Of a DNA stretch of 32,256 nt, positions 1,351 through 28,555 are shown in pieces (the stretch's first letter is position 1; every line of letters starts with the position of its first letter). The notes under the pieces were generated by a model. That model saw only the letters and a list, made by a program, of their open reading frames with translations. It was not told where the DNA came from and did no database searches. The stretch is from a virus: the IMG/VR virus record IMGVR_UViG_3300017772_000064, positions 1 to 32,256 of that record. The stretch is one strand, 5' to 3'. The translations under genes were made by a program, and so were the position numbers.

Positions 1351-2328
1351 TTAACCTGCAGTATCAAAAACACCACCGCTAGATGCTTCGTTTTTAGCAC
1401 ATAGAGTAAGCTCAGTAACAACCTGACGCTTAGTAGCATCACCTGTTTTGGCTAGCTCAGTGTTCTTAGTGCCACGTAGAACGCCAACTTCCCACATATC
1501 GCTTTGCAGGATGTAAACGTCACTGCCACGACACTCACGGCTTGGAGTAAATTCAACAGTACCCCACGGAGTTACATAAACGTCTACAGAGTTGTAAACA
1601 GTTTCTTTAGCAGCATCAATGTTACGTCTGCTGTTACCACCACCCTCAAAACCAAGAGCAATGTTCATGTTAGTTGGCGAAAGGTATACACGATCTGGAT
1701 TACCACCAGAAGTCCATACTTTTTGCATAACATCATCAAACAAAGTTTGAGTAAACGCACGCGCAGTATCGTTGTCAGTACGTGCTGTAGAGCCAGCTGC
1801 ATTGCTTCCATCAACTACGGGGTCAGCACCAGCTGTAGTAGAGCCTGTACTGTCGAAGTTAGTGTTAGTGTTAACCCAAGCGCCTAGACCTGCTAACTTG
1901 CGTGCAGTAGTAGAATCACCACCTACATATGCTTGGTTAGCAAATAAAGCTTTTTCAATGTCTAATTTTTGCTAGCGTGCAATTTTTAAAGTTTGGTACG
2001 CCATTTCCTTAGCGCGCCCTGCTTTAGATAGACCTTCATCAGTGTCTGCAATGATAACAGCGTTTTTGAAGATTTGAGTGCGGTTGTTTAAGCGAGTTGT
2101 TGGTGTCGCTGCTGCAAATGTAGTCTCGTCACCTTCAATGTGAAAGTTATCGCCAGATGAGCGTAGAGTATCAGTTTGCCACTCAACTAAAGTGTTTTTA
2201 GCTTTAGTCTTTTTACAAGCTGAGTACAGCGGGGTATCATCGGGAGTAATAGAATAAATAACGTCAGATAAGTCTTCTTTTATTCCAGAAATGTCGTATG
2301 AGTCGTACGTGTTTGCTACTTGTGCCAT
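1351..2328 (-). CDS. Major capsid protein, DUF5309/SU10 type, interrupted by an in-frame TAG
   Basis: The N-terminal part (TYDSYDISGIKEDLSDVIYS, then KNTLVEWQTD, IEGDE, PTTRLNNRTQ and GRAKEMAYQ) matches the DUF5309 capsid family, HK97-fold proteins that build the icosahedral shell. A TAG at 1972-1974 stops the frame after 118 residues. The same frame then continues without further stops for 206 residues (QKLDIEKALFANQAYVGG to GGVFDTAG), the expected remainder of a capsid protein of about 325 residues. By comparison with the family pattern, I believe the stop replaces a charged or polar residue, perhaps Glu, Gln or Lys. The start has a good Shine-Dalgarno site (TGAGGAAATAATC). Either the sequence carries an error or mutation, or the codon is suppressed. 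As written, the 118-residue product could not form a capsid. Confidence 0.9.
1972..1974 (-). other. In-frame amber codon within the capsid gene
   Basis: The plus-strand bases CTA read TAG on the coding strand at codon 119, between ...LKIAR and QKLDIEK.... Upstream and downstream parts are in the same frame and both look like one capsid protein. There is no plausible downstream ATG with a ribosome-binding site that would make the second part an independent gene. Confidence 0.9.
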
Positions 2329-11321: not shown

Positions 11322-13628
11322 TTATGGCTCTTGTTTTGAAATTTTTACAAAAGATTGCATTATTTGACCTGAATCACCGCTTCCAATCTCCCTGATTTCC
11401 ATAGAATATTTTAACTCTCTGCTTTCATAAGCAGTTTTAAACATCAACGCTGCGTTTTGCGTTCCGCTAAAATATCTTTCATCAATATCCCTGTATTCTA
11501 TTAGCGCTGTACCAGCGCTTTCCCACGCGTAAGGATGCCAGTATAAAGTTGTCCCACTAGCAGGTGCAGAAGGGTAGGTAGTCAGCAAAAAATACGTTCT
11601 ATTCTGGGAAGGCATATACTGCCACGAATATATTTTTTTCTCAAAAGAACCGCCTGACTGGTTTTCATGCACCGCCCCAAACTCAGTAAATAAGTGCGTT
11701 TTGTTCCCTGCAACAGAATACCATTGCTCGTATATGGACACTGTGCTGTATTCCCCGCCAGTGATCTGTGTTGCGCTTCCTAAACTTTCACCGTTTGAGG
11801 ATACGCCTGTTGGAACATATAAAGAAAACTTTACCTGCAAATCATTAGTTGTGGATGTGTAGCCCCAACTAATTTTCAAGTTGGCATCGACAAACCGCAT
11901 GGTTGCCATAGGCGTTAACATATCGTATATGTAGCAATAATTCCCAACACAACTGAATGATGTTGTTAGTGGCTTTTGCCCACCATCTCTTATCATCAGA
12001 TAGTCTTCTTTATGATACTTGAGATTACCTACATCAACGCCATCTACTGTGCCTGTAACTGTAATATCACCTGTTACATCGAGACCGCCAGTTACTCCAC
12101 CCTACAAATTAGTTGTACCTGCCACAGTCAACGACTGTGTGCCTGATGGCGGCATGCCTATGAGTACATTGCCAGTAAATGTAGCACCTGATAGGTTTGC
12201 TTTTCCTGAGATGTCTTGATGGGCTGTTAGGTAAGCACCTAAATCACTAATCTGACTTTCAGTAATGCTTAATGCCGCTTGGTGCTGAGTAACACTACTT
12301 TGTGTAATGTTTGCATCTGGTACGTTTGCCCATGTAACAGCAGTGGATAGATCGTTAGCTTCTGTAAATGACGCTAGGTAGCCAGCATCTGCGTGATTAC
12401 CCCACCCATGCGCTGTATTCCAATCTCCAGAGTTGTCTGTGACTATAGAATACGAGCCTGAAGTAGCATCTCGCTTCATCAAGCCTTCTGAAGCAAAATC
12501 TCCATCAACAACTACGTCAGAATGGCTAGTTTCTAAGGTAGAAACCTGTGTAGCTAGGCTAGTTGTTACGGCTTGATTATTACTGTCGCCTATGAAGATA
12601 TTACCATCGTTGAGGTTAGGAGTAGCGTTAGTACGCCCTGCGCCCATGATTTTTACAGAACCAGCTGAGGCGTGTGATCTAGTAACCTTGCCTATTTTTT
12701 GTACAGATGAGCCTTCACCTGTTGGTGCTGTAGATACAAGCGCGCCAGCTGTAGCGCCTACAAATAACTCATCACCTTCTGTGTAGCTACTGGTGTCTAA
12801 TCCAGCCAATGTACCAAACGTGTAAACCTCAAGGTTAGCATTGTTGTTAGCGTCTATGGCTGCCAGACCAAAAGCAGGCATTTTTGCAGCATCGTCTGCA
12901 TCTGCTTTACTAACGACAGTTGTGTTGCCAGATATACCAGAAATATAGACAACATCACCTTTTGTTAGCGCCTCACCTGCTTGTGCTTTGAACACTACAG
13001 CGCCACGCAAATCACCTATAAACTCTGTTGCCTCTACGTCACCTGTAACTGTAACACCATCAGCAGTAGCTTCTGCCTTGATGTTTCCGCTGTGGTACAG
13101 AGCAGATACTTGCGTGTAGTCTACAGTGCCGTCAGCGCCTCTCAAATCGCCTGTGCTAAATCCTAACCCATCATCTGAGGTAAAGGTAACTATGCCTGTA
13201 GAGCCATTATATGATCCACCAGTAAATCCATCACCATCTGCACCATTAGTGCCGTTCGTACCATTAGTACCATTAGTGCCGTTAGTGCCTCGCACATCTG
13301 CGGTTGAGAAGCCTAAACCATCATTTGACGTAAATGTGATTATTCCAGTATTGGAGTCGTATGAACCACCAGTGAAACCAGTGCCATCTGTGCCATCAGT
13401 ACCATCAGCGCCTGCAACACCATTACCTATAGTATTCCATTGACCGTTGCCACTGTATAAGATTGTTTTGTTATCGTCATCCCACACCAACATACCGTCA
13501 CGATACGCTGTAGCCCCTGAAACATAAAAAGCTAAGTGTGACTTTGTTCTCGTTAAAAAAGAATTTAGTCGCTCAGCCCAATGCTTGTACTCAGTTTGCC
13601 CTGCTACTGGCGGTCTTTCTACACTCAT
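11322..13628 (-). CDS. Tail fibre/spike protein with collagen-like repeats, interrupted by an in-frame TAG
   Basis: The frame spans 768 codons with one TAG at codon 509 (12102-12104). Before it come an N-terminal virion-attachment region (VERPPVAGQTEYKHWAERLN), two copies of a 34-residue beta module (81-114 and 131-164) flanking a Gly-Thr-Asn collagen-like stretch, then a region with ALTKGDVVYISG, and beta repeats. After TAG, 'GGVTGGLDVTGDITVTGTVDG' continues the same repeat style and leads to a C-terminal domain of about 220 residues, probably receptor-binding. In such repeats TNLQGG or similar is common, so the stop may replace Gln (CAG). It overlaps the nozzle-like gene by ATGA. Confidence 0.85.
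12102..12104 (-). other. In-frame amber codon within the fibre gene
   Basis: The coding strand reads TAG between LTVAGTTNL and GGVTGGLDVTG. Both sides are in one frame and belong to one continuous beta-repeat region, so the stop divides a single gene. Termination here would remove the last 259 residues, including the probable receptor-binding domain. Readthrough would give two fibre forms. Confidence 0.88.
13137..13388 (-). repeat. Duplicated 34-residue beta module around collagen-like triplets
   Basis: Residues 81-114 and 131-164 of the fibre share the pattern DGxGFTGGSYxxxTGIxTFTS followed by xDGLGFSTxDxRG. Between them lie Gly-Thr-Asn triplets (residues 115-130) like those of phage collagen-type fibre stalks. 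The nucleotide copies are 13287-13388 and 13137-13238. They probably arose by tandem duplication and could recombine to change fibre length. Confidence 0.88.
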
Positions 13629-20383: not shown

Positions 20384-23300
20384 TTAGTTTAACAAGCCTT
20401 GTGGCACGTAAAAACTTTCAGCATCTATGAAGGGTCTGTCTAGCAATCCTGACGCTGGTTGTTGCAAAGTTTGCCGAGGTGGTATCAGCTCACCCTCTAA
20501 TGGCTTACTAACTAACCCTCGTCTATAAAAGTCTAGCAACCCTAATGCACCTAGCGCTCCATAACCTGCTGCTGGTATAAGGTTGTCTTTTACATAACCC
20601 TCATCCATATTTCTGTATGCACTACGTATACCTCGCAAAGCGTCTGCTATAGACGATTGCTCTACCATAGACTGTGGCAGCATATCTTGCTCTAGCAATG
20701 CCTTGAGGTATGGCTCGGCAGTGTCATAGAGGTTGCCAGTATTAACTCTTACATTCTGCGCCATCTTGTCACGTAACCTACGTGATCGTTCGCTGCTTGC
20801 TTCAACCTCTGGGTTAAAAAACTCTCTGACATTTTCTTTATAGTTTTTGCTATCTGGGTCGCCTGATAAATACTCGCCAGCAGTAGCAAACGACTCAGGT
20901 ATAAAGCTAAGCGCTTCTAACAGTGTTTCAGTTGCGCCCTCGCCCACTGCTGCTGGGAATGCTGCTACATTTGATACTGTGTTTAATATGCCATCAACTT
21001 TGTCTTGCTTAGAGTCTCTGGCTAGCATATCTTCAATGGCAGCTCTGTTCTCTTCTCGCTGCGTATCTGTGTCATCATAGACAATGTTATCCGCCTGCTT
21101 GTTACTGCCGTTAGAAAGCAATCCTGTAGTCACAGCTGTTGCTGTCGCACCCCCGATCAAAGGGTGACTAAACACTGATACGCCTTTATTCTTTAACTCT
21201 TTACGCATCTTGTCAGTTATTGGCAGTGTCAGCACTTCCTGACCAGTCTTATCAGCTATCCACTCGTATGCTTCTTTTTCAGAGTCAACGTCAGCATTTA
21301 CTCTGATATTATCATCGTCACGAATTTCCCAGCCTACATCATTCTCATCATAAAACACCTCGTAGCCTTTATTCTTAGCCTTCAGCTTTGTAGGTGTCAG
21401 CTTAACGCCATACTGTTTAGCCCAATTGTTAATGTGATTCTTTAAGGTGTTGTCGTAAAAGTTAACTACGCCTTTTATGTCAGCTGCGCCCTTCCAGCGC
21501 TCACCCTGTGTTTTGCCAGTAGTGAATGAGATACTGTCATAGTCGCCTTCTGCTGCATCAACTAGTGCGCGCTTGAATGCTAAGTCATACCAGCTAGACT
21601 TGTCACTAGACTTAAATGGCATATCAGGCACAGCTATTTCGGCTGTAGTAATCTTGTCGCGCAAGTTATCGACCTGCCTATCTAGGCTACCAATTCTATC
21701 TACAATACTTTCGCCAAATTCTTCCTGAAACGCTTTGTTTCTAGCAGCTTCAACCCTCTTACCAGCTAGAATAGCCTCGTCGCTAGCTACATCTGCCGCA
21801 CTAAGAATCATGTCTAGCTCTTTAGGCATATTGTCGCCTGCCCACGTTCCAATGCCCCACTTGCCAATCATAAGCTCATCTAACTCATCTTCTAGCTTGT
21901 CCCTGCGAGCAACCATTGCATTGAGTTCTGGCTGCTTAGAGTAACCAACTTTAGCGCCACGCTGATGCATATCTGACTGTATCTCTTCGACCATCAGTGT
22001 ATTGCTATCATCAACGGCTTGTCTATCAGCAACGCGCAAATGTGACAGTATGTTTTCTTGCTCATCAAAATGTGACGTAAGGAAAGGATAGGGTATATTA
22101 GCGCGCTCTTGTTGCAGCTTGTTGATGTTGAGGTTAACCTGTAAGATTTCTGGGTCGTTAACAGCTAGCTCGTCTAGCTCAGCCTGACCACCGCCACTGT
22201 CTAACAGACTGTCATACAGCTGATCTTCACGCACCTCTTTTATTGCGTATTGCTCTGATATTTTTCGCGTAAGGTCTTCTTCTTTTGCTATGTTTACATC
22301 ATCTTTAAGCAGTATTTCACGATAGTTTTCACTGTCGCGCTCTGATAGCTGAAACTCCTCATGCTCAGGCAGTCGCACATCCTCATTTAGCTCAAATTGA
22401 TTAGTACGCGCCTCAGAAGCTGTGTCATATCTACTGTTGACTGTACCATCTGGGTTGTAGACAACAAAGTCGCCAGTGTCGTAGTCTCTTTTTGTTGTAT
22501 AGCGTGGCTGGTCAGTTAATACCGTCTCCCTAATCTTGTACTCATTGTTTTTAAGAAACTCTGCAACCTCATCTTTTGTGATGTCAGGCTTTCTAAATCC
22601 AAACTCATTATCAAAGCCCATTAACTGTAGCTCTTTTGGCTTAACGCCTTGTCCTTTCAGTGCGTTCTTCCATCCAGATGCTGTAGTTGGTTTTTTACGC
22701 TGCGTACGCTCTAACGCTTTCAAAGCATAGCCACCAAACCCTGCTGCATCTGCCTCTTCACTACCTAGCAGGCTCATGGCTGCCGTTCCTAATGTTGCAG
22801 CTGTAGGTAGTAAGCCTGATTTAAACTTAATGCCAGCATCACGCATTGCATTTAGCTTTTCTCTGGTTAAAATGCCAGACGGATTAGCCGTTTTAATGTA
22901 GTATTCAGCATCTTTATCTGCAACTTTCTTTCCTGCTTTAGTGAAGAAACCTTCCGCTGGCTCTGTAAGCTGGCGCGCAGTTAAAGGAGTACTCAACAAC
23001 CCTAACCCCTCGCCATGAAAACCAACTGGGTAATTTATGCTAGTGTTTTTGCTAGTACCTCTACCCACATCTATCTCAGCAACTGCTGGTAGCGTCTGGT
23101 TAGCAGAGTGTATGTAGTCTGGGTTTGTTATAGCTAGCCTTGCATTACCTAGCGACAACCCATCCATGTTCTTTAACTTATCTAGCTCGATTTGCAGTTT
23201 CTTTCGTGTGACTGCTGGCGCATCATAAAACGCTTGCATAGATTGCGCGTCATTAGCATTACGCCAGTTTGGTATATGCTTTCTGATGATATCGTCTTGT

Positions 23301-23824
23301 TCTTTAAGTGTGCTTTTTGGCGCATTGGCTTGGTTATATCGAACCATTGTTGTAGCAATGTTTTTGTCGAAATCAACGCCTTTTGGCCCTAACAATCTAG
23401 GCAGCATTATAGGGTTTTGGCCAGTTTGTTCTTTCAGGGCTTTAGCTTGATTCATCATTCTACTAATGACTGACCCGCCACTTGACCATACTTGCGGGTT
23501 GTGGAACATGAAGTTGCTGCCAGTATTTAGCTCTATTGGCTGAGACAATGGGTTGTTACCTATACCCTCTAGCAGGCGGTTAGAGATAGCTCGATCTGAC
23601 TCACCTAGCACATAACCACGCCCCTCAAAGTCAGATAGGTTAACTAACGGGTACTCTACAGGCTCAATAACTGATTGATTAGGTTTCATCCAGTCTTCTA
23701 ATATCTTGTCTGGATCTTTTGATGTGGAGTGCGAGTATTCAGGCAGCCTACCAGTTTGCTCTAACTTTGGATCATCCAGCAGCTCACTGATTGTATTAAG
23801 TATTCCTAAACCTCGTTGTCGCAT
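20384..23824 (-). CDS. Large polyvalent-type virion protein (1146 aa)
   Basis: The largest gene in the window. Residues 385-400 (WKNALKGQGVKPKELQ), 612-623 (VEEIQSDMHQRG), 732-738 (VPDMPFK), 767-777 (FTTGKTQGERW) and 867-885 (LPITDKMRKELKNKG...) form, in order, a module common to phage and conjugative-element polyvalent proteins, which are carried into the recipient with the DNA. The module's biochemical activity is not known to me. An N-terminal domain of about 340 residues has no confident match. Gly/Ala-rich hydrophobic segments near 337-354, 888-904 and about 1095-1110 could insert in membrane. Its preceding TATAAT at 23852 gives it an own promoter. It sits between terL and the adaptor, where a portal would normally be. 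Probably an ejected internal protein. Confidence 0.7.
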   Translation of the reverse strand: MRQRGLGILNTISELLDDPKLEQTGRLPEYSHSTSKDPDKILEDWMKPNQSVIEPVEYPLVNLSDFEGRGYVLGESDRAISNRLLEGIGNNPLSQPIELNTGSNFMFHNPQVWSSGGSVISRMMNQAKALKEQTGQNPIMLPRLLGPKGVDFDKNIATTMVRYNQANAPKSTLKEQDDIIRKHIPNWRNANDAQSMQAFYDAPAVTRKKLQIELDKLKNMDGLSLGNARLAITNPDYIHSANQTLPAVAEIDVGRGTSKNTSINYPVGFHGEGLGLLSTPLTARQLTEPAEGFFTKAGKKVADKDAEYYIKTANPSGILTREKLNAMRDAGIKFKSGLLPTAATLGTAAMSLLGSEEADAAGFGGYALKALERTQRKKPTTASGWKNALKGQGVKPKELQLMGFDNEFGFRKPDITKDEVAEFLKNNEYKIRETVLTDQPRYTTKRDYDTGDFVVYNPDGTVNSRYDTASEARTNQFELNEDVRLPEHEEFQLSERDSENYREILLKDDVNIAKEEDLTRKISEQYAIKEVREDQLYDSLLDSGGGQAELDELAVNDPEILQVNLNINKLQQERANIPYPFLTSHFDEQENILSHLRVADRQAVDDSNTLMVEEIQSDMHQRGAKVGYSKQPELNAMVARRDKLEDELDELMIGKWGIGTWAGDNMPKELDMILSAADVASDEAILAGKRVEAARNKAFQEEFGESIVDRIGSLDRQVDNLRDKITTAEIAVPDMPFKSSDKSSWYDLAFKRALVDAAEGDYDSISFTTGKTQGERWKGAADIKGVVNFYDNTLKNHINNWAKQYGVKLTPTKLKAKNKGYEVFYDENDVGWEIRDDDNIRVNADVDSEKEAYEWIADKTGQEVLTLPITDKMRKELKNKGVSVFSHPLIGGATATAVTTGLLSNGSNKQADNIVYDDTDTQREENRAAIEDMLARDSKQDKVDGILNTVSNVAAFPAAVGEGATETLLEALSFIPESFATAGEYLSGDPDSKNYKENVREFFNPEVEASSERSRRLRDKMAQNVRVNTGNLYDTAEPYLKALLEQDMLPQSMVEQSSIADALRGIRSAYRNMDEGYVKDNLIPAAGYGALGALGLLDFYRRGLVSKPLEGELIPPRQTLQQPASGLLDRPFIDAESFYVPQGLLN

Positions 23825-23863: not shown

Positions 23864-25150
23864 TTAAACGATTCCTTGAAGGTTTCGTCTAATAGGTTCA
23901 CCCCAGTTGGTTGTCTCCTTGTAACCTATGGCTAGATACCTCATTGCATCAGCACAGTGGCTTGTCCAGTCGTGTAATGGTCTGCTGCGCCATGTCATGC
24001 CTTTCTCATCGTATTCACGCCTGTATTGACGTAAAGCATCGACACCTCGCTCACACTTGTCCTTGTCGAACCAGCAGCGTGGTATCAATGACCTGACAGC
24101 TTGTATACCATCATCAACATTAAGCTGCGGGGCAATATGTACTGGCCTCACCCCCAAACCATCTAATGTCTCTAAGCGTGATCTACCAGTGCCTAGCTCC
24201 CTGACCCTGACATCATGTGGCAGTATGTGCTGGTCGTATACGTAGCCCTTCTCACCTAATACCCTAGCGTAATGGTCTAGACCTACACCGCTGCTTTCAT
24301 AGTAGTCTATAAGGCGCACCTCAGCCCCTACCATCTGTGCAAACCAGATAGAGGTACTATCGCCTACCCCTAAATCCCAAGCCGTTACAACGCCAATAGA
24401 TCGGTCGTATGGCACATTGGTAATACGCTCATTATGTGTAGCTTCACGCATCTCTACAGCAAAGTATGCACCCTCTGCATGGATGAGCATCTGCCCTTCC
24501 CAGATATGGTCATACAGGTCTGGTCTATTCTTCTTGTCTTCTAGGCGCTCATTCTCTAGCACCTTTGGGAAGAAAGGATTGTCACGCCAGTTAATCTCAG
24601 CGATCTTCATATCAGTTGGTGGATGCACCCTGAACCGTCTGTGCGTTGCTGAGTGCTTTGTCTCTGGATTCCACGTTACCCATATCTCAGAGTCGTCTTC
24701 ACGTACAGTTGGTATTAGCTTCTGCCATGCACTATCGGACACACCTTCTGCTTCGTCTACCCATCATAGGATGATACGTGCTTTAGATTTGATTGAGTCT
24801 AGGTTGCGCCTGAGACCAGCGAACACGTAATTGATTCTACCGTCTTTAGAGCGTATGTACTTCTCACCTAGCTCATAGTAGTCTGAAAGGAATTTAACGC
24901 CTCTAATGGCGCTTTTGACCTCTTCTAGGGATGATTCATCAAGTGAGTTAAGGTGTTCCCTTGCACAGAGTATCTGACCCTGCTTTCCTTCCATACCCCA
25001 TTGGTAACCACGTACTGCTGTCATCAATGCGAATGATCGTGTCTTAGCTGACCCTCGACCACCATAGGCACATCGGTATCTGGCTTCACCCTCAAACAGA
25101 TCAACAATCTTAGGTGGTAGATTAATCTCTACTGTATCAGTCTGACTCAT
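23864..25150 (-). CDS. terL: Terminase large subunit, interrupted by an in-frame TGA
   Basis: The frame of 428 codons has one TGA at codon 129 (24764-24766). Upstream lies the ATPase Walker A GGRGSAKTRS (about residues 30-39). Right after the stop comes WVDEAEG, the Walker B acid pair of the packaging motor. Downstream are VTWNPE (coupling region) and the nuclease motifs AWDLGVGDSTSIWF and HDWTSHCADAMRY. Together they make a normal Sf6/PBSX-type large terminase that pumps DNA through the portal. As read, the first part would lack Walker B and the nuclease. From memory, this family often has Cys or a small residue before WV(D/E)EA, so TGA may derive from TGC or TGT. The start overlaps terS by 14 bases. 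Confidence 0.93.
24764..24766 (-). other. In-frame opal codon within terL
   Basis: Plus-strand TCA reads TGA between ARIIL and WVDEAEG, in a motif that must be intact for ATP hydrolysis. The second part has no start codon with a ribosome site (the first candidate is GTG at 24742, after Walker B), so it is not an independent gene. Confidence 0.92.
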
Positions 25151-27698: not shown

Positions 27699-28274
27699 TT
27701 AACCAAACCTGTACCAGCCAGTCATAATATATTTAGCGTCAGACAGTGGGGGGTTGCCTCTATGCGCGTGGGTGAAGTTAGCAGGAAAAATAATTAGCTT
27801 TCCCGCTTCAGCTTTGATTCTTTTACTGTAATACAAAAACTCAGTTTCACCGCCCTCTTGTATGTCGTTTAGATAAACTATCCACGCCACAGCTCTTGTC
27901 ATTGAGCCAAGCGTTTGTCGCTCACTGTGCCATACGTGGTAGCCCTGCGTAGGTTCTGTTTTCTGCACCAAAACATCTTCGATAGCCATATCCACCTTTG
28001 TCTTCGGGCTGAACATACCCTCTTGATGCGCTTCAACATAGGCTCTCACATAGTTAGATATAGGGGTGATAACGTGATTTCTGCACGTACCTTTCATGTT
28101 AGTCATAAGAGCCGTGGTGTAAGATGCTCTACTATCATTGATTTTTTGATTTGGGTTTTGTGTTTCCCACAACATACCTTGCGACTGCATTACGCTAAAA
28201 TCATCTAGCACTATTTCGCACTCTTGCTGCGTGAGCGCGTTGGGAATTACCTCAATAAAATCAGGTGTTTTCAT
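27699..28274 (-). CDS. 2-oxoglutarate/Fe(II)-dependent oxygenase
   Basis: I start at 28274, where ATG has GGAG six bases upstream and overlaps the upstream TAA (TAATG), giving 191 residues. The iron site is seen as YHVWHSE (H-x-E type) with the distal His in FPANFTHAHRG, and the C-terminal Lys/Arg position (KYIMTGWY) for 2-oxoglutarate. WIVYLNDIQEGGETEFLY is the conserved strand pair. The family includes prolyl hydroxylase-like enzymes common in marine phages. The substrate is unknown; host or virion protein hydroxylation or nucleic-acid modification are both possible. Confidence 0.88.
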   Translation of the reverse strand: MKTPDFIEVIPNALTQQECEIVLDDFSVMQSQGMLWETQNPNQKINDSRASYTTALMTNMKGTCRNHVITPISNYVRAYVEAHQEGMFSPKTKVDMAIEDVLVQKTEPTQGYHVWHSERQTLGSMTRAVAWIVYLNDIQEGGETEFLYYSKRIKAEAGKLIIFPANFTHAHRGNPPLSDAKYIMTGWYRFG

Positions 28275-28555
28275 TACAGTCTCCATAGCATCAATGTGCC
28301 TGCGTCATATGGCTCACAGTAAAAGCCATGCTTATCTGCCATTGCCTCTACACCTTCATGGTACTGGCTGCCAGTCATGCTCCAGTAGTCAAAGTAAGGC
28401 AGCCCATCTTTGTCTAAATCCTCGCTGCCCTTTAACCAGATACCGTCTTGCTCGACCTTATCTTCACCAGTAAATTCATTGTAGGGAACAGCGTCAATGT
28501 TAGGGAACGCTGCGTTTAGTTTTTTGCAAAGAGTGGTTGCTCTTGTCTTTTTCAT
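28274..28555 (-). CDS. Small unknown early protein (93 aa)
   Basis: A 93-residue protein starting MKKTRATTLCKKLNAAFPNI with a central acidic segment (GEDKVEQDGIWLKGSEDLD) and an aromatic C-terminal half (YFDYWSMTGSQYHEG). I recall similar small proteins in phages without function. The leader carries CACAAACGAGGAAATAAAA before the ATG, part of the shared early-gene leader motif. It is coupled to the oxygenase by TAATG, so the two may be made together. Confidence 0.68.
   Translation of the reverse strand: MKKTRATTLCKKLNAAFPNIDAVPYNEFTGEDKVEQDGIWLKGSEDLDKDGLPYFDYWSMTGSQYHEGVEAMADKHGFYCEPYDAGTLMLWRL

Follow-up and report, generated by a model that had tools for sequence, protein, structure and literature searches.

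Phages with suppressed stop codons in their late genes exist (PMC10607447; PMC11210395), and among the closest described systems are the amber-recoding phages, such as the crAss-like phages and phAss-1, which carry in-frame TAG codons in virion genes. About half (52.4%) of the amber-recoding phages encode a suppressor tRNA with a CUA anticodon (PMC11210395), and phAss-1, a recoded phage of 136 kb, has TAG in 41 open reading frames (ORFs) as well as three suppressor tRNA genes (PMC10607447). In-frame stops under purifying selection have also been reported in bacteria (PMC7918605). The locus described here is akin to those of the recoding phages in that TAG interrupts virion genes, but it departs from them in four respects: (i) it comes without a suppressor tRNA gene; (ii) there are two in-frame TAG codons in 32 kb, and TAG is also used as a terminator; (iii) one of its three stops is TGA; (iv) the residues replaced by TAG are Glu and Tyr, not a conserved Gln. 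With private nonsense changes and consensus errors in assembled contigs it has in common that the changes affect one base each, are found in no relative and are spread over unrelated genes, although fewer missense changes accompany them than random error predicts.

The interrupted major capsid gene

The window (the whole stretch of DNA that was analysed, 32,256 bases) is identical in sequence to an IMG/VR virus record of that length. According to the original prediction, a DUF5309 capsid frame carries TAG at codon 119 and then continues intact for 206 codons, and this was confirmed on the minus strand, where the frame starts with an ATG at 2328, is open again over codons 120–325 and closes with TAA as codon 326 (1351–1353). 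The read-through product matches PF17236 SU10_MCP (formerly DUF5309; E 2e-83, residues 10–321 of 325) and the 'major head protein' profile phrog_1328 (E 1e-85) and, in a profile comparison based on sequence only, two capsid proteins of solved structure, 9ny2 and 7z45. As both PF17236 and phrog_1328 are matched across the TAG, the frame amounts to a single capsid gene that one internal stop interrupts. The gene is flanked by a scaffold-like gene (3361–2339) on one side and by small genes on the other. A predicted structure of the read-through protein (pLDDT 33) was too poor for use.

Table 1. Interrupted genes of the window and their in-frame stops
Feature	Coordinates	Strand	Remarks
Major capsid protein gene	1351..2328	-	PF17236 SU10_MCP / phrog_1328; 325 codons when read through
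In-frame TAG, capsid codon 119	1972..1974	-	Glu in relatives, GAG in nearest
Tail-fibre-like gene	11322..13628	-	phrog_9729; 768 codons when read through
In-frame TAG, fibre codon 509	12102..12104	-	TAT (Tyr) in six contigs with same flanks
Terminase large subunit (terL) gene	23864..25150	-	PF04466 / phrog_3717, phrog_2; 428 codons when read through
In-frame TGA, terL codon 129	24764..24766	-	Cys (TGC) in close relatives, mostly Ala in distant ones

A comparison with close relatives had been proposed as a means of learning which residue belongs at the interrupted position, and the answer was uniform. In a first comparison, codon 119 specified Glu in 22 of 22 capsid relatives (GAA or, in nearly all of them, GAG). 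Three of these are the nearest capsid genes found (93, 84 and 72% identical), the other 19 loci include copies of the same contigs, and identity over the whole set ranges from 31 to 93%. A DNA pattern permitting either GAR or TAR matched 14 viral contigs, every one with GAR, and more distant capsid relatives on bacterial genome contigs, mostly MAG contigs, have Glu at 14 of 15 loci and Ala at the remaining one. A DNA search of phage records returned a single weak capsid match. The position is strongly conserved, Glu being kept in the solved homologue 9ny2 and in nearly all members of the SU10-type family seen, and a stop at this codon is absent from all the relatives compared (22 capsid loci, 14 viral contigs and 15 genomic contigs). 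While the likeness to the SU10-type family extends over nearly the whole length of the protein, the interruption of its reading frame is peculiar to this record. Judging from the sequences compared, the TAG is one substitution away from GAG and private to the record.

These comparisons also bear on the idea that two separate genes meet at codon 119 and that the shell is assembled from two chains, to which we attach virtually no probability. Nothing was found in support of it; the relatives carry one continuous gene, the TAG results from a change of a single base, and the next listed in-frame start past the TAG is a TTG at 1743, 77 codons on.

Companion stops in the terminase and tail fibre genes

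The capsid gene is not alone in being interrupted: the terL gene contains a TGA and a tail-fibre-like gene a second TAG (Table 1), on both of which the original prediction was silent. Apart from the TGA, the terL frame is up to 99.5% identical to those of relatives. The interrupted codon is TGC (Cys) in the 42 best-matching relatives listed and encodes Ala or Cys in farther ones, and a TGA-specific scan of IMG/VR gave no match to the stop version of the site. The affected residue adjoins a WVDEAE stretch, which we take to resemble a Walker B motif. The fibre motif was present in six contigs, one of them the contig of a capsid-bearing relative, and all six have TAT (Tyr). Like the capsid TAG, the terL TGA and the fibre TAG are private to this record.

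When the window was screened with the ORFs of relatives and the matches were read by eye, no stop in a real gene came to light beyond these three sites; the other matches were rejected because they lay in antisense or shifted frames, at the ends of genes or upstream of the genuine start. Apparent private stops in three of the relatives (G002, G004 and G010) were judged to be effects of alignment or of start-site choice.

Two other genes on the minus strand may be mentioned: one of 1146 codons (20384–23824), which matched neither Pfam nor PHROGs and for which the loci fetched included no close relative spanning the greater part of it, and one for a 2OG-Fe(II) oxygenase-type protein (27699–28286; PF13640).

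Genetic code, tRNA genes and suppression

In a tally of 39 gene ends, TAA occurred 20 times, TGA nine times and TAG eight times, two entries having clipped ends. The genes that end in TAG include the one adjoining the scaffold gene, in the same operon, and late genes beside the capsid gene are among those that end in TAG or TGA. Although two late genes with in-frame TAG might evoke a reassigned code in which TAG or TGA is read as sense, both codons terminate genes of the window itself and hence are not reassigned; moreover, in-frame TAG occurs only twice and TGA once in ~32 kb, as against 41 TAG-containing ORFs in phAss-1 (PMC10607447), recoded phages described so far having TAG in dozens of genes and often suppressor tRNAs. 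We therefore give reassignment hardly any credence. The same picture emerges from a comparison with translation table 15, the amber-recoding code: where a suppressor tRNA with a CUA anticodon would be looked for, there is none in the window, from which a small part of the genome is missing, or in 11 related loci; in place of TAG in many genes and its avoidance as terminator, there are two in-frame TAG and eight TAG-ended genes; and where relatives would have one residue, Gln, opposite TAG, they have Glu in the capsid and Tyr in the fibre.

The missing part of the genome can be gauged from a relative (G002; IMGVR_UViG_3300017709_000011, loci L173 and L174) whose 35,154 bases begin and end with the same sequence and which is probably a complete circular genome. 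In this relative, the stretch that corresponds to the gap between the window's ends measures ~1.7 kb and holds small genes without a tRNA gene, so if the layout is shared the window would lack only this small part.

The original prediction had offered two options, either a mutation or sequencing error or a codon that is read through, possibly by means of a suppressor tRNA encoded elsewhere in the genome or in the host. The second found no support in the sequence. It would require that the stops be suppressed by the host or by a gene located in the part of the genome that the window lacks, the late proteins being made in a condition-dependent manner, and we consider this improbable. It would accord with the location of all three stops in late genes, with the lack of a missense excess (see below), as though nonsense were tolerated, and with the precedents from phages and bacteria cited at the outset. 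However, neither the window nor the 11 related loci yielded a tRNA gene, including the stretch of the relative that matches the missing part, and TAG acts as an ordinary terminator in the very operon concerned. Two kinds of stop codon stand in for three different residues (Glu, Cys and Tyr), so that one suppressor cannot explain them all; even a single amber suppressor would have to serve both Glu and Tyr, and a near-invariant Glu would give way to whatever residue was inserted. In functional read-through of the kind known for the A1 protein of Qbeta, the stop is kept in relatives, whereas none of the three stops is shared by any relative here. The CAAAAA that follows the capsid TAG is simply the continuation of a conserved GAG-CAA-AAA, and the context thus implies no special read-through motif. 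If the host suppressed amber as well as opal codons, so that nonsense in virion genes was tolerated, the three stops without a missense excess would be explained, but we rate this as even less probable.

Origin of the three stops

The other option, mutation or sequencing error, fits the data: the capsid stop differs from the relatives by one base, is absent from every relative found and is accompanied by two other private stops. On balance, we favour the interpretation that the three stops stem from wrong bases in the consensus or from damaged DNA, the contig being of metagenomic origin, since codon 119 is a sense codon in all relatives, the terL and fibre stops are private too, and capsid, packaging ATPase and fibre cannot all fail in a phage that dominates its sample. 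The amber codon, a private one-base substitution, would then be a consensus base gone wrong through an error in sequencing, through damage to the DNA or through low coverage; in the virus itself, codon 119 would specify Glu as usual, and the capsid protein would be an ordinary one of the HK97 fold. We infer a technical cause rather than a real mutation.

This interpretation is put under moderate strain by the pattern of the accompanying changes. Random substitutions yield 74.3% missense and 5.0% stop changes, that is, ~15 missense changes are expected per stop, but no missense excess was seen. The ratio of missense to synonymous among the private codon changes of the window is 0.28 (54/191), as compared to 0.25, 0.32 and 0.44 in three comparable relatives (G001, G003 and G002, respectively), and the 1444 columns that are invariant among relatives contain five missense changes in the window, a rate close to that of the relatives. 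In tests that were made after the fact, so few missense changes had a P of ~0.015 for the terL stop alone, with the capsid stop discounted and the fibre gene outside the test, and the probability of at least two stops among the errors was 0.085 with 10 errors and 0.26 with 20. Such a case is not startling among many scanned windows. The residual oddity over positions 1–32256 is that three nonsense changes occur without the missense excess predicted by random error.

Each of the three changes is a transversion (GAG>TAG, TGC>TGA and TAT>TAG) and two belong to the G:C>T:A class, whereas the 121 private differences of the window include 51 transversions and only six of that class (5%). Technical error accounts for this somewhat better than natural mutation does, although three sites are few. 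Oxidation of guanine ex vivo is known to leave G>T changes as its signature (PMC12390751). Oxidative damage as the single cause was nevertheless rejected: the private differences of the window show no G:C>T:A excess (6/121), and the fibre change is T>G.

If the stops are instead real, the record would represent one defective genome in which the functions of capsid, terminase and fibre were lost by nonsense mutation, and which could have come from the amplification of one molecule or cell, from a cloned insert or from a prophage in decay; we regard this as a serious possibility, albeit less probable than base errors. Three nonsense changes in virion and packaging genes without a missense excess are what selection for loss of function would favour, and the right end of the window holds a gene for an HTH regulator next to a replication-like gene. 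Against this, frameshifts or deletions, which would likewise be expected if function were being lost, were not found in the virion genes, whereas near-neutral decay predicts the missense excess that is not seen; long decay of the genome was rejected on the basis of the ratio of 0.28 and of the rate at invariant columns. Neither the window nor three relatives, one of them complete-looking (35 kb with matching ends), contain an integrase or resolvase; no prophage state is thus evident, and a prophage inactivated in place is without direct support. By itself, a phage without capsid protein, terminase and part of its fibre could not be common. Apart from the three stops, the genome looks healthy, with no frameshift found and a missense-to-synonymous ratio like that of its relatives.

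Base errors in the contig thus remain our preferred explanation, and the case indicates that a lone in-frame stop in a phage contig from a metagenome should be compared with close relatives, and with the remaining genes of its record, before it is put down to read-through or recoding. Should deep reads confirm the stops, on the other hand, this phage would offer a rare example from nature of several nonsense codons being tolerated.
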